Positions 10,210-28,500 of a DNA stretch of 33,807 nucleotides are shown here, piece by piece. The notes under the pieces were generated by a model. The model made no database searches. It saw only the letters and a list, made by a program, of their open reading frames with translations, and had not been told where the DNA came from. The stretch covers positions 1 through 33,807 of the forward strand of contig VBOJ01000085.1 in assembly GCA_005877775.1 (NCBI GenBank), written 5' to 3'. This DNA comes from Nitrospirota bacterium. GTDB taxonomy: Bacteria; Nitrospirota; Nitrospiria; Nitrospirales; Nitrospiraceae. Numbering within the stretch: the first letter of the stretch is position 1; the number at the start of each line of letters is the position of its first letter. Position numbers and translations under genes: made by a program.

Positions 10210-10260
10210 AGGACCGAGGGCCGAGACTCAGTGCTCAGCACTCAGTCCTCAGTCCTAACT
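10210..10260. repeat. Heptamer repeat element D (dsrE2/tusA)
   Basis: Five consecutive 7-bp units (NCTCAGN) run from 10226 to 10260, preceded by two or three inverse units. Outer arms 10210-10223 and 10243-10256 match as inverted copies at 11 of 14 positions, and an inner perfect palindrome (6 bp around base 10236) lies at the centre. The element ends 3 bp before the dsrE2 stop codon (10263-10265). Confidence 0.7.
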
Positions 10261-20817: not shown

Positions 20818-21666
20818 GTGAGAACAAGGCGCATCTTAGCTTCCCTACCCTTGATGGCCCTCACGATCGGAGGCCTCGTTGCTGCCGATGCCGGGTCGTC
20901 AGTGCCGTTATCGGTCGAACGAGTGGGAAGAGACAGTGCACCGATGGTGCTGGTGCCAACTGGTCCCTTTCAGATGGGTGTTCCCCCAGGAGACCGAGAC
21001 GGAGGACGGGATGAATATCCCCGCCACGAAGTCTATCTCAATACTTTCTCTATCGACAAGTTCGAGGTCACGAACGGGCGCTATCTGGAGTTTATCAAGG
21101 CGACCGGTCATCGAGTGCCGCAGCACCCGAAAGATCCCAACAGAAACCTGTGGCAAGACGGCCTGATGCCGGAATCAATCGCTGACCGGCCCGTGATCAA
21201 TGTGGATTGGTATGACGCGGAGGCCTATTGCCGCTGGGCCGGCAAGCGCTTGCCTACCGAAGCCGAATGGGAGAAGGCTGCGCGGGGCCCCGACGACCGC
21301 CGGTTCCCGTGGGGCAATCTGGAGCCCACCCACAAACACCTCAACTACAACCAGCGCTGGATCGGCGAGAAGACCCTCATGCCGGTGGGCAGCTACGAAG
21401 CCGGGAAGAGCCCCTATGGCGCCTATGATATGGCCGGCAACGTCTGGGAATGGGTCGCAGACTGGTACGATCCGCTTTACTACGAGAAAAGCCCTGCCCA
21501 GAACCCGAAGGGCCCTCAAACCGGCACCCATAAGGTGGTCCGCAGTTCGGGGTGGTATGCCGAGACCCCCTTGGTCCGCATCTTCACCCGCGTGAAGAGT
21601 GACCCCTTGGAGCGCAACCATTCCACAGGCTTCAGATGTGCGCTCAGCGCATCTGAAGCCAAGTAG
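20818..21666 (+). CDS. Secreted SUMF1/FGE-like protein (first copy)
   Basis: A 282-residue protein with a signal peptide (about 1-24, RTRR followed by a hydrophobic core). The rest is one FGE-sulfatase domain (PF03781): MVLVPTGPFQMG, YPRHEVYLNTFSIDKFEVTNGRYLEF, PVINVDWYDAEAYCRWAGKRLPTEAEWEKAARG, YDMAGNVWEWVADWY and GFRCA. True formylglycine-generating enzymes carry a Cys pair after the RGGSW position; here the segment is RSSGWYAETPLVR with no Cys, so sulfatase activation is unlikely and another periplasmic role should be expected. The start is GTG 20818; the ribosome-binding site is weak (AAGG overlapping). A perfect 11-bp-arm hairpin overlaps the last codons. A second copy lies at 27369-28322. 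Confidence 0.82.
   Translation: MRTRRILASLPLMALTIGGLVAADAGSSVPLSVERVGRDSAPMVLVPTGPFQMGVPPGDRDGGRDEYPRHEVYLNTFSIDKFEVTNGRYLEFIKATGHRVPQHPKDPNRNLWQDGLMPESIADRPVINVDWYDAEAYCRWAGKRLPTEAEWEKAARGPDDRRFPWGNLEPTHKHLNYNQRWIGEKTLMPVGSYEAGKSPYGAYDMAGNVWEWVADWYDPLYYEKSPAQNPKGPQTGTHKVVRSSGWYAETPLVRIFTRVKSDPLERNHSTGFRCALSASEAK
21628..21660 (+). other. 3' hairpin over the last codons of the SUMF1-like gene
   Basis: Perfect 11-bp arms (21628-21638 and 21650-21660) with an 11-base loop that can form three more pairs. It ends 3 bp before the stop codon at 21664 and has no T-tract, so it may protect the 3' end rather than terminate. Confidence 0.55.
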
Positions 21667-21671
21667 GATAT

Positions 21672-22132
21672 GGTGATCTGGTGATTTGGTGAGGCAAGGG
21701 AAGCGATGGCGCAGAAGATTTGAGGCAGCGAACAAAGCGCTTCGCGCTCCGTATCGTGAAGCTTTCCCAGACACTCTGGAAAGGGAAGGAAGCCAGGGTG
21801 CTAGGAGACCAGTTGCTCAGGGCAGGGACGGCAGTAGCGGCAAACTACAGGGCAGCGTGCCGAGCACGATCTAGGGCCGAATTCATCGCGAAGTTGGGTG
21901 TGGTTGTGGAAGAGGCGGACGAGACGGTCTTCTGGTGCGAACTGCTTGAAGAGGCAGGGATCGTGCCTCATGAGGATATGAAAGAGGTCGTGGGAGAGGC
22001 CAGAGAACTTTTGTCTATCTTCTCGGCCGGCCGAAAGACAGCCAAGACCCGAACGACCTGACCTCTTTGCACTTCAGCCTCCATCACAGTACGGAATCAA
22101 TCTTGATGACTTCACCAGATCAGCAAATCACT
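21672..22132. mobile_element. Repeat-flanked unit F carrying a four-helix-bundle gene (putative)
   Basis: Inverted arms 21672-21694 and 22110-22132 match at 18 of 23 positions and consist of an 8-bp unit (GGTGATCT / GGTGATTT). They enclose the 4HB reading frame and almost nothing else. The left arm starts 5 bp after the stop codon of the SUMF1-like gene; the right arm encodes the first residues of HemD. No target-site duplication is evident. The arm architecture is the same as that of the five short elements in the window. Calling it mobile is inference. Confidence 0.5.
21720..22061 (+). CDS. Four-helix-bundle protein (S23 / 23S rRNA-IVS type), N-terminus disrupted
   Basis: A 113-residue reading frame with the core of the S23/IVP four-helix-bundle family (PF05635): RQRTKRFALRIVKLSQTL, VLGDQLLRAGTAVAANYRAACRARSRAEFIAKLGVVVEEADETVFWCELLEEAGIV. 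Proteins of this family are encoded in 23S rRNA intervening sequences and as scattered single genes; the related Avd protein works with reverse transcriptase in diversity-generating retroelements. Their own function is mostly unknown. The natural start seems to be ATG 21706 (AGGGA upstream), reading MAQKI and then a stop; the expected continuation is in another frame, as if about seven bases were lost near 21719. The frame can be read only from TTG 21720. It may be a recent pseudogene. Confidence 0.7.
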   Translation: MRQRTKRFALRIVKLSQTLWKGKEARVLGDQLLRAGTAVAANYRAACRARSRAEFIAKLGVVVEEADETVFWCELLEEAGIVPHEDMKEVVGEARELLSIFSAGRKTAKTRTT

Positions 22133-22975
22133 AAATCTCACTTTGGCGGCCTCAAAGTGGCGGCGTTCGAAAGCCGGATGGCCGAGGAAATGGACCGCCT
22201 GATCGCCCGCTACGGCGGACAACCGCTGGTCGCGCCTTCGATGCGTGAGATTCCCCTTGAAGACAACCATGCCGTGTTCCGGTTCGGAGATCAGCTCCTG
22301 GCCCGTCAGTTCGACATGGTGATCCTTCTGACCGGTGTGGGCACCAGGACGATGGTCGAGGCGCTCAAGACTCGACAGCCGCTGGACACCATCAAAGCCG
22401 CGCTCGCCCGCGTCAGCCTGGTGGCCCGGGGACCCAAGCCGATCGCCGCGCTGAAAGAACTCGGCCTGACGCCAGAGATCGCAGTGCCGGAGCCCAATAC
22501 CTGGCGAGACGTCCTCCAAGCGCTCGATGATCGAAAGCCCGTGGCTGGTCTGAGGGTTGCGGTCCAGGAATACGGGGTCTCGAACGCCGAGCTACTGGAC
22601 GCGCTGCGGCAGCGAGGTGCAATCGTGACCAGGGTCCCAGTCTATCGCTGGGCGCTCCCGGAGGATACGGATCCGCTCAGACAGGTTTTAGACGCGATCC
22701 TTGCGGGTCAGGTGGACGTGGTCTTGATCACCAACGCAGTACAGGTGGACCATGTCATGCAGATGCTATCGGAAGACAACCAGGCTGAGCGGTTTCGGCA
22801 GGTCATGCGCCGGATAGTCGTCGCGTCGGTGGGGCCCACTGCCAGCGAACGGCTGAGAAGCCACGGGCTACCGGTTGATCTGGAGCCTTCCCACCCCAAG
22901 ATGGGCATCCTCGTCAAAGAGGCGAGCGAACGAGCCCCCCTGCTTCTTCAGCAGAAACGGCCAGCAGTCCTCTGA
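22106..22975 (+). CDS. hemD: Uroporphyrinogen-III synthase
   Basis: Closes linear hydroxymethylbilane with inversion of ring D to give uroporphyrinogen III, in tetrapyrrole synthesis. HemD proteins are poorly conserved, but the two-lobed pattern is clear: GLKVAAFESRMAEEMDRLIARYGGQPLVAPSM, VILLTGVGTRTMVEAL, LKELGLTPEIAVPEPNTWRDVLQAL, VAVQEYGVSNAELLDALRQRGAIVTRVPVYRW, VVLITNAVQVDHVMQML and VASVGPTASERLRSHGLPVDLEPSHPKMGILVKE. Length is 289 residues. The only reasonable start is ATG 22106 (a TTG lies 13 codons earlier); it and the next 13 codons lie in the right arm of the 4HB repeat unit, so the N-terminus was probably replaced. No other heme gene is adjacent. Confidence 0.8.
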   Translation: MTSPDQQITKSHFGGLKVAAFESRMAEEMDRLIARYGGQPLVAPSMREIPLEDNHAVFRFGDQLLARQFDMVILLTGVGTRTMVEALKTRQPLDTIKAALARVSLVARGPKPIAALKELGLTPEIAVPEPNTWRDVLQALDDRKPVAGLRVAVQEYGVSNAELLDALRQRGAIVTRVPVYRWALPEDTDPLRQVLDAILAGQVDVVLITNAVQVDHVMQMLSEDNQAERFRQVMRRIVVASVGPTASERLRSHGLPVDLEPSHPKMGILVKEASERAPLLLQQKRPAVL

Positions 22976-23026
22976 AGGAAAGCGGGCGATTGCACCTGAC
23001 CAGTTCAACCGACGCCGAATCTCGGC

Positions 23027-24934
23027 TTACCTTTTGTCCTTGGGGAGATACTCGTTGAGGCCGCGCCGGATGATTCCGCTCGAGAGTGAGGGGTAGTCGC
23101 CATGAAGTGCGCGCGTTCCGATGGCAGTCAAGATTCGATCGCGATTGCGAAGCAGCTCCCGGATGTTCCTGTCGATTCGTTCTTTGGCATTCCTGAAAAA
23201 TTCCTCAGCCAGGTCCCATGCCTCGTGGCGTCCAGCGGTTCGCTCCTTCGACTCCGCAGACAGGACCGTCGCGGCGATCGTAAGCAGATCTTCGCCCACC
23301 GCCTCGATCCGGTTCTGCCTGCCTTGATCATCTCGCAGCGCCGCCCGATGCATGACCATCGCGTACACGATCGCCCGCGCGAGGCGCCGGCTTGCCCGCT
23401 CGGCGTAACGCAGTGTGCTGCGGACTTTGGGGTGTCGCATCTCCAAGCGGGATGAGAGCGAGTTGCGTCGCCATTGCCTCCAGTACCAAGGAATGTAGAA
23501 ACGAAGGAGTCTGACGAATTCCCTGATCCTTTCAATCCCAGTCACCCGTTCATCGAAGTAGGTTCGTGCCCGGTCGAGGTGCGGGCTGAGCCCCTCGCGC
23601 GCCACGAACGGTCGCAACACATCCGTGGCCCCTTCGCCAATGCGGTACATCTCGGCGTCACGGACGAGCTGTTCGATGCCGAATCCAGGTTCCCCGCGGA
23701 GCCGTTTGGACTCTGCCGTCTCATAGCCCATCCCGCCAAAGATGATTTGGGCGTCCTTCAGCAAGTGGATCGTCTTTTCCGAACAAAACATCTTCGCGAT
23801 CGCGGCTTCGATGCGGATGTCATACTGTTTGTGATCCGCCAGATGCCAAACCAGCAACGCCAGCGTTTCCATCGCAAACAGGCTCGCTGCCATCTGACCG
23901 ATCCGCATCTGCTGCGTTTGGCGCTCCCCGATGGGTTTTTGAAAGGTCTGCCGCGAGTTCGCCCGGTCGAGGGTGGGCTGCCAGGCCTGTTTGGCCATAC
24001 CCAGGCAGATAGCAGGAACGCTGATGGCGCGTCCGACGTTGAGAATGATGAGGGCGTATTTGAGTCCTTTCCCGATCTCGCCGATGACGTTCTCGACGGG
24101 GACGCGCACATCCTGGAACGTCATGTGCGCGTTTTCAATTCCACGACATCCCTCAAACTGACACCGTTGGCGAATCTGCACCCCGGCCTGATGCATGTCG
24201 AGGATGAAGGCCGTATGCACCAGGTCCTCGGCTCCCTTCCCCTCCGGCACGGGCACCCAGACCGACTTACCGTCGCGATGAGCCCGTTTGGCCGGGACGC
24301 GCGCGATCAGAGTGGCGAAGCGGGCAATGGGCCCGTTCGTACACCAGAGTTTCTCGCCATGCACGATAAACTGGCTGCCGGTTGAATCCAGCACCGCCTC
24401 GGTCTGGATGTTCGCGGCATCAGAGCCAGTCATCGGTTCTGTGAGCGCGAAGGCGGAGATGGCTTCGCGAGCCACGCACGGCAGGTACTTCTGTTTTTGC
24501 TCCTCGTTGCCGAAAAGGAGAATCGGCATGGCGATGCCGATGGATTGGGGCACGGCCACCGTGAGTGCCAAAATATTGCTCCAACTGGCCATGAGCGTGA
24601 GTACGCGGCCGTAATTCTTATATGAGAATCCGAGCCCTCCGTACTGATTGGGGATCTTCATCCCGAAGGCTCCGAGCTCGAACAAGCCCTTGAGTACGGT
24701 GTCCGGAATCTTGGCCATGCGCTCGATTTCGTCCGAATCGACGTGGTTGATGAGAAAGGCTTCGATTTTCTTGCAATAGGCTTCCCCGGCCCTTCTCTCT
24801 TCGGCCGGCTCTTCGGGCGGAAGGAGCAGATCAAAATCAGGCTTGCCTTCAAACAGACCGGCCATGAAGCTCACACCGGTGATGCGCTCTCGGGCTTCCT
24901 CGATCCGCTCCAGGCCCTTAAACAGTTTCGACAT
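23027..24934 (-). CDS. Acyl-CoA dehydrogenase, long-chain type with C-terminal extension
   Basis: Introduces the trans-2 double bond into acyl-CoA, using FAD. Residues about 50-450 form the dehydrogenase core: FALTEPMTGSDAANIQTEA (FAD/substrate region), GEKLWCTNGPIARF, and EMYRIGEGATDVLRPFVAREG with the probable catalytic base Glu434. The last 185 residues form an extra helical domain like that of mitochondrial VLCAD/ACAD9, which binds membrane in those proteins; this suggests long-chain substrates at the inner membrane. The 635-residue length agrees with that group. The ATG is at 24932-24934. Adjacent genes give no fatty-acid pathway context, and electron-transfer flavoprotein genes are not in the window. 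Confidence 0.9.
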   Translation of the reverse strand: MSKLFKGLERIEEARERITGVSFMAGLFEGKPDFDLLLPPEEPAEERRAGEAYCKKIEAFLINHVDSDEIERMAKIPDTVLKGLFELGAFGMKIPNQYGGLGFSYKNYGRVLTLMASWSNILALTVAVPQSIGIAMPILLFGNEEQKQKYLPCVAREAISAFALTEPMTGSDAANIQTEAVLDSTGSQFIVHGEKLWCTNGPIARFATLIARVPAKRAHRDGKSVWVPVPEGKGAEDLVHTAFILDMHQAGVQIRQRCQFEGCRGIENAHMTFQDVRVPVENVIGEIGKGLKYALIILNVGRAISVPAICLGMAKQAWQPTLDRANSRQTFQKPIGERQTQQMRIGQMAASLFAMETLALLVWHLADHKQYDIRIEAAIAKMFCSEKTIHLLKDAQIIFGGMGYETAESKRLRGEPGFGIEQLVRDAEMYRIGEGATDVLRPFVAREGLSPHLDRARTYFDERVTGIERIREFVRLLRFYIPWYWRQWRRNSLSSRLEMRHPKVRSTLRYAERASRRLARAIVYAMVMHRAALRDDQGRQNRIEAVGEDLLTIAATVLSAESKERTAGRHEAWDLAEEFFRNAKERIDRNIRELLRNRDRILTAIGTRALHGDYPSLSSGIIRRGLNEYLPKDKR

Positions 24935-28322: not shown

Positions 28323-28351
28323 TCGCGCGATTCCTCCTTGTTGCAAGGTAC

Positions 28352-28500
28352 GTCACTCGTCATCCGTTATTCGTCATCCGTTATCCGTCAGTCGTTAAAG
28401 ATTGGTCGTGAACTCCTGGAGCCGATTCGTTGCTCCTTGCGAATGACGACTGACGAGTAACTAATGACGTTCCCGTTGACGAATGACGACTGACCAATCT
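28352..28500. repeat. Inverted heptamer-type repeat element E
   Basis: The left arm is seven 7-bp units near GTCATCC (28352-28400). The right arm consists of inverse units near GAATGAC (28441-28494) and contains a perfect 14-bp direct repeat (28441-28454 and 28481-28494). A perfect 9-bp inverted pair (28399-28407 and 28492-28500) links the inner end of the left arm with the outer end of the right arm. The last bases overlap the stop codon (28499-28501) of the next gene. It is the longest of the non-coding elements. Confidence 0.75.

Follow-up and report, generated by a model that had tools for sequence, protein, structure and literature searches.

Genes for S23/IVP-type four-helix-bundle proteins mostly lie within inverted heptad or octad arrays and form small, transposase-free insertion units

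The S23/IVP-type four-helix-bundle (4HB) gene located between a SUMF1-like gene and hemD in a Nitrospirota genome is one copy of a small unit that is inserted, together with its flanking arms, at many unrelated sites in bacteria and archaea. The typical unit is approximately 480 bp in length and consists of a 4HB gene with mirror-image arrays of a 7-8 bp word at its ends, the word being specific to the protein subfamily. The distribution of these units is best accounted for by a selfish unit whose pentameric 4HB protein recognises its own heptad arms; we infer both the binding and the movement, and regard this explanation as probable.

The window is the whole stretch of DNA that was analysed, 33,807 bp in length, and belongs to genome G000, which is 92% complete; G001, G009, G010, G036 and others are its relatives. 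The initial annotation had described the arms as inverted copies (21672-21694 and 22110-22132, matching at 18 of 23 positions) built from an 8-bp unit. Counting by hand gave exactly this number, and a repeat finder returned period 8 and lengthened the arms to 32 nt each, with 78% complementarity and a spacing of 419 nt between them (Table 1). The arm word of the window protein is GGTGATTT. When a 250+300+250 bp frame was slid along the window (1321 placements), the top score of 30 was reached only in five placements over the 4HB gene, and in predicted RNA folding the arms pair in both the MFE and the centroid structures (z = -2.3). As had been proposed, only the 4HB gene is found between the arms, and the unit contains no transposase. 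The unit had also been placed between the stop of the SUMF1-like gene and the start of hemD; both neighbours were confirmed, but the arms overlap the stop codon and the first hemD codons. The TAG stop (21664-21666) is inside the 5' arm. The likely hemD ATG is at 22106-22108, and the 3' arm lies inside hemD, so that arm sequence makes up approximately 11 codons at the beginning of this gene.

Table 1. Features of the 4HB unit and its neighbours, in window positions.
Feature	Position	Strand	Remarks
5' arm	21661..21692	+	octamer array (GGTGATYT), G-rich on coding strand, holds stop of upstream gene
S23/IVP four-helix-bundle gene (PF05635)	21720..22061	+	113 aa, TTG start assumed
3' arm	22112..22143	+	inverted copy of 5' arm, overlapping hemD N-terminal codons
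Insertion including arms	21642..22156	+	segment not aligning to same-genus relative G001; borders approximate
FGE-sulfatase/SUMF1-like gene	20818..21666	+	upstream, co-directional; PF03781 5e-60
hemD (uroporphyrinogen-III synthase)	22106..22975	+	downstream, co-directional; PF02602 1.2e-37; in-frame ATG 22106

Other repeats were seen in the window. The final codons of the SUMF1-like gene, immediately before the 5' arm (21628-21660), contain a near-perfect 14-bp hairpin (GGCTTCAGATGTGC/GCGCATCTGAAGCC), which is almost identical in G009 despite a protein identity of only approximately 74% over the whole SUMF1-like gene. A gene-less inverted heptad hairpin (CGTCATT/CGTTATC; 28351-28395 and 28446-28488) with a score of 34 has no 4HB gene near it, and a lone heptad array of the CTCAGTC type, for which an inverted partner was not found, is located at 10225-10258.

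The assignment of the enclosed gene to the S23/IVP type was borne out by its match to PF05635 (E = 2.3e-15; 57.2 bits against a gathering score of 33.8). Its AlphaFold model (pLDDT 91.8) has four helices, and a Foldseek search with this model returned 2RLD (TM 0.81-0.88) and 2GSC (TM 0.75-0.85), followed by Avd (4DWL), so that by both profile match and predicted fold the product is an S23/IVP four-helix bundle. The assembly in 2GSC is a pentamer (PMC4990558).

Inverted periodic arms flank all six PF05635 genes of G000, and the word differs from gene to gene. The flanks of other 4HB genes, which the initial annotation had named as a check, were compared in two sets of loci, 97 from G000 and its relatives and 77 usable loci from approximately 20 phyla, archaea included. 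In the first set the median inverted score was 34 for arms from the same locus versus 18 for mismatched loci and also for the direct orientation; in the second the same-locus score was 35 versus 17. Inverted arms scoring 26 or more were present at 87 of 97 and 63 of 77 loci, versus 17 of 369 ORFs of G036 (approximately 5%), a control in which that genome's own 4HB genes are still counted. Chance or local coincidence as the origin of the window arms is ruled out by these arm scores. Clear arms were absent at some 4HB loci, for example L093, L190, L200 and L220.

Although arms were picked by complementarity and not by period, the best period among the 150 scoring loci was 7 in 115, 8 in 19 and 9 in 11 (7-9 bp in 145 of 150). 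Period 7 was the best at 63 of 87 and 52 of 63 loci, with 8 and 7 in the controls. The 5' arm is G-rich at 137 of 150 loci (G exceeds C in 79 versus 8 and in 58 versus 5), an arm holds approximately 4-5 units (4.2-4.6), and mismatches between arms recur at spacings of 7 and 14. The upstream gene is co-directional at 86 of 96 loci, as expected of a unit expressed from host transcripts; this bias may result from selection for expression rather than from the chemistry of insertion. Within 6.3 kb of an Omnitrophota genome (L223) there are three 4HB matches, and their arm words all differ. In G036, arms with a 9-bp period (GTTTGTTTG) surround long non-4HB genes, an EF-G-like gene and a nuclease-like gene (C89 17293-19606, L121, and C10 70922-72686); these arrangements could reflect either a pair of solo hairpins or units of larger size.

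Arm words follow the clades of the 4HB protein tree. Pairs of 4HB proteins with 60-80% identity and unrelated flanks have an arm similarity of 0.51-0.59 versus a background of approximately 0.21, and a cyanobacterial plasmid copy (L100) and a Nitrospirota copy (L012) from the same clade have the same word. We propose that each protein subfamily keeps its own word because the protein recognises its own arm array. The S23 protein of Xanthomonas campestris is XCC0516. GGGAATC heptamers abound in the genomes of Xanthomonas (PMC4692102). These two points together gave an independent prediction of GGGAATC arms, and the 4HB unit of X. cucurbitae, located between accB-like and accC-like genes (names judged from sequence), agreed with it by having GGGAATC arms. 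The Xanthomonas 4HB gene is under purifying selection (dN/dS 0.07-0.13), which indicates that the protein does something.

Array copy number differs between the Nostoc orthologs L098 and L099, and in 29 of 37 pairs without shared flanks the two arms of an element resemble each other more than they resemble those of the other element; in pairs with shared flanks, within-element similarity is not above between-element similarity, so concerted evolution of the arms is supported among diverged pairs without shared flanks only. The differing copy number and the likeness of arms within elements, together with mirrored unit variants in Xanthomonas and the variable copy number in Coxiella, would suit an origin of the arms as a mutational by-product, in which replication slippage makes the tandem units, the arms stay alike through template switching between their inverted copies, and the 4HB protein has no part. 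This explanation is improbable as a whole: arms of this kind go with a single gene family (90% versus approximately 5% of ORFs), their polarity and unit number are fixed, and each protein clade keeps its word at sites that are unrelated. Slippage and template switching are likely to act as a maintenance process on top of the proposed recognition by the 4HB protein.

A comparison of filled and empty sites, which had also been suggested at the outset, indicated that the arms belong to the insertion, since the unit is absent along with its arms in G001 and since an exact empty site exists in plasmids of the Calothrix type. In G001, a member of the same genus, the SUMF1-like gene and hemD overlap at ATGA with no unit, and the junction is approximately 67 bp in length versus approximately 515 bp in the window. 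A unit with the same word occurs at this junction in four genera, an AU test on the HemD tree rejected a single clade of its carriers (p = 4e-6), and G010 has a 4HB gene of a different subfamily with a different word there. The site may instead hold an old insertion that was lost many times, but such losses would have to have re-created start-stop overlaps.

Exact borders were obtained for cyanobacterial plasmids. In plasmids of Calothrix brevissima NIES-22 the whole unit, both arms included, is located between two genes, and the corresponding junction in Tolypothrix, Aulosira, Nostoc carneum and Nodularia plasmids consists of a stop codon, 3 bp and ATG. Among the 30 records listed, the S23 gene was found at this junction only in two NIES-22 plasmids. 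Arms pre-existing at the target were excluded for this site by the empty junction itself. No target-site duplication was seen here, at the one exact empty site, the other borders being blurred. In Nostoc, a TraM junction is without the unit in two plasmids from a single strain, filled in two other strains with arrays of differing length, and occupied in a further strain by a gene-less derivative of the same word.

At the Xanthomonas accB-accC junction, matches along the entire unit were obtained for 31 of 35 species. In four Xanthomonas species (L271-L274) a gene-less CGGGACC hairpin occupies this site, where the others have a GGGAATC/GGGATTC 4HB unit. No hairpin-free junction was seen among the 35 species; the genus was thus rejected as a source of clean empty sites, as every accB-accC junction had the unit or a hairpin of another word. 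Carriage by phages was also rejected, as a tblastn search of 50,697 phage records returned nothing.

The units could instead be RNA devices of the host, in which the arm stem in an operon mRNA is cut by RNase III and thereby insulates or stabilises cistrons, the 4HB protein binds and regulates, and any spread is incidental. Their position between the stop and start codons of co-directional genes and the pairing of the arms in predicted RNA would agree with such a role, as would the strong purifying selection and near-fixation at Xanthomonas accB-accC and the excision of the Coxiella intervening sequence (IVS) by RNase III (PMC4990558). However, the host genes are unrelated between loci, the unit is missing at the same junction in close relatives, orthologous junctions have different words or none, and same-word solo hairpins also occur inside coding sequence, and we consider a host device unlikely. 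A selfish unit remains the preferred explanation.

Gene-less (solo) hairpins of the same word are dispersed in some of the genomes. In a matrix limited to two words, GGGAATCx2 was found in 244, 140, 17, 19 and 79 copies in the five genomes with that arm word, which are related gammaproteobacteria, and in 0 copies in 11 others, while CGTTATTx2 occurred 69 times in its own genome and 0-1 times elsewhere. The window's own word occurs at only a few further places in G000, where solo hairpins were counted by pattern only. Solo arrays that were fetched are mostly convergent hairpins with approximately 4+4 units. In G036, a 4HB unit within a dTDP-rhamnose gene cluster (contig C10, approximately 21162-23122; L114) is surrounded by same-word hairpins in neighbouring places, one of them in frame within an rmlB-like gene, and this looks like local seeding. 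A solo GGGAATC hairpin is located just upstream of the start codon of a groEL-like gene in many Xanthomonas species (L296-L310). Two solo hairpins traced through Xanthomonas are old and vertically kept, and as some solos and the accB-accC copy are old and vertical, activity may be rare or past. The 4HB gene and the dispersed heptamer repeats seem to be complementary components of a single mobile system.

The initial annotation had pointed to Avd, a relative that assists retroelements, and to possible movement through RNA. The part of this lead that held is the shared fold; 28 of 37 carrier genomes, G000 included, are without a reverse transcriptase (RT). Movement through RNA, in which the 4HB protein would assist an RT in the manner of Avd in diversity-generating retroelements (DGRs), would draw on the Avd-like fold found by Foldseek, on the published homology with Avd (PMC10053308) and on the presence of units on host transcripts. 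It is nevertheless very improbable, since RVT_1 occurs in 9 of 37 carriers versus 7 of 24 non-carriers (p = 0.77) and is absent from G000 with its six units and from the near-complete G003, G005, G010, G012, G021, G031 and G036, which have 5-11 units each. An RT may have been lost since, or may fall outside PF00078. We give equally little credence to a scheme in which a Y1 (HUH) transposase mobilises REPIN- or MITE-like hairpins and the 4HB gene is cargo. The solo hairpins do resemble REPINs, and Y1 is somewhat more common in carriers (23 of 37 versus 10 of 24), which is not significant (p = 0.19); against this, 13 carriers, G000 included, have neither Y1 nor RT (0 Y1_Tnp and 0 RVT_1 matches in G000), and the arm word varies with the 4HB subfamily, a link that would stay unexplained if the gene were simply a passenger. 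Neither enzyme is supported as a necessary partner by these 13 genomes, and neither is needed in the genome of a carrier.

The mechanism that we propose for the selfish unit begins with an array of G-rich heptads or octads at the 5' end, the 4HB gene, and the inverted array at the 3' end. Such a unit has inserted repeatedly, arms included, in most cases right behind a stop codon and oriented like the adjacent gene, and would be read on the host transcript, where its arms could pair to form a stem, as happens in 23S rRNA intervening sequences. Most likely, the pentameric 4HB protein reads its own array, with approximately one unit per protomer, a proposal drawn from the matching of protein and word, the pentameric assembly and the 4-5 units per arm. 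The TRAP ring, which binds spaced GAG repeats, offers an analogy. Gene-less hairpins of the same word would be the non-autonomous partner. The protein would thus bind the arms and spread both units and solos, and joining would be left to host replication or repair enzymes, for example through template switching at a protein-bound hairpin. A broader reading, which we hold only tentatively, is that of a mobile class lacking a recombinase, transposase and RT of its own, in which a pentameric helix bundle reads a 7-8-nt word and could spread every hairpin built from that word, while the word and the protein diverge together.

PF05635 is among the most scattered uncharacterised protein families and is found in most phyla. 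In the open-access literature searched, no paper connected S23/4HB genes with heptad arms or dispersed heptamers, a link that may be published elsewhere. The heptamer repeats of cyanobacteria, Xanthomonas and Beggiatoaceae have so far had no explanation of their spread, and the correspondence of word and protein is a direct, testable candidate, as the arms of any 4HB protein name its putative target word. For Beggiatoaceae, an unidentified repeat-binding protein has been proposed as the mobile element (PMC4679880). In Xanthomonas, the same heptamer that forms the arms of the 4HB unit has been described from Xcc as 186 GGGAATC arrays, mostly of 4 units and including 70 convergent pairs, close behind stop codons; they were treated as G-quadruplex repeats, with related GGGGAYT arrays in Nostoc, and the text does not mention S23 or a helix bundle (PMC4692102). 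Cyanobacterial STRR heptamers and the heptad motifs of the trnL P6b loop are also 7-nt complementary repeats, for which no 4HB gene has been noted. The STRR words are presumably identical with arm words described here. In Nostoc, the P6b loop of the trnL intron has 7-nt complementary repeats, and repeated replacement of the P6b type is reported between lineages (PMC4476775).

The REPIN/RAYT system likewise combines dispersed palindromic pairs with a protein family encoded in the same genome, but RAYTs are Y1 transposases, whereas the 4HB protein is a helix bundle for which no catalytic activity is known, and its arms consist of heptads in tandem. Avd of the DGRs has the same pentameric four-helix fold, but G000 has no RT. 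The closest likeness is to the 23S rRNA IVS of Coxiella, Leptospira and Brucella, in which an S23 4HB ORF is closed by terminal inverted repeats, as it is in the window. The Coxiella element is a suspected mobile remnant, with tandem GACAGAT heptamers of strain-variable copy number upstream of its ORF (PMC4990558). Unlike the IVS, the window unit is located between an FGE gene and hemD and not in a 23S rRNA helix loop, units in many phyla are found between protein genes of many kinds, and both arms are heptad arrays with a subfamily-specific word and dispersed solos of that word. The long-suspected idea of the IVS as a mobile element thus gains free-living relatives with empty sites and, if the proposed mechanism is true, the reading of a 7-8-nt word would unite S23/IVP proteins, 23S intervening sequences, cyanobacterial STRRs and the G-quadruplex heptamers of Xanthomonas.
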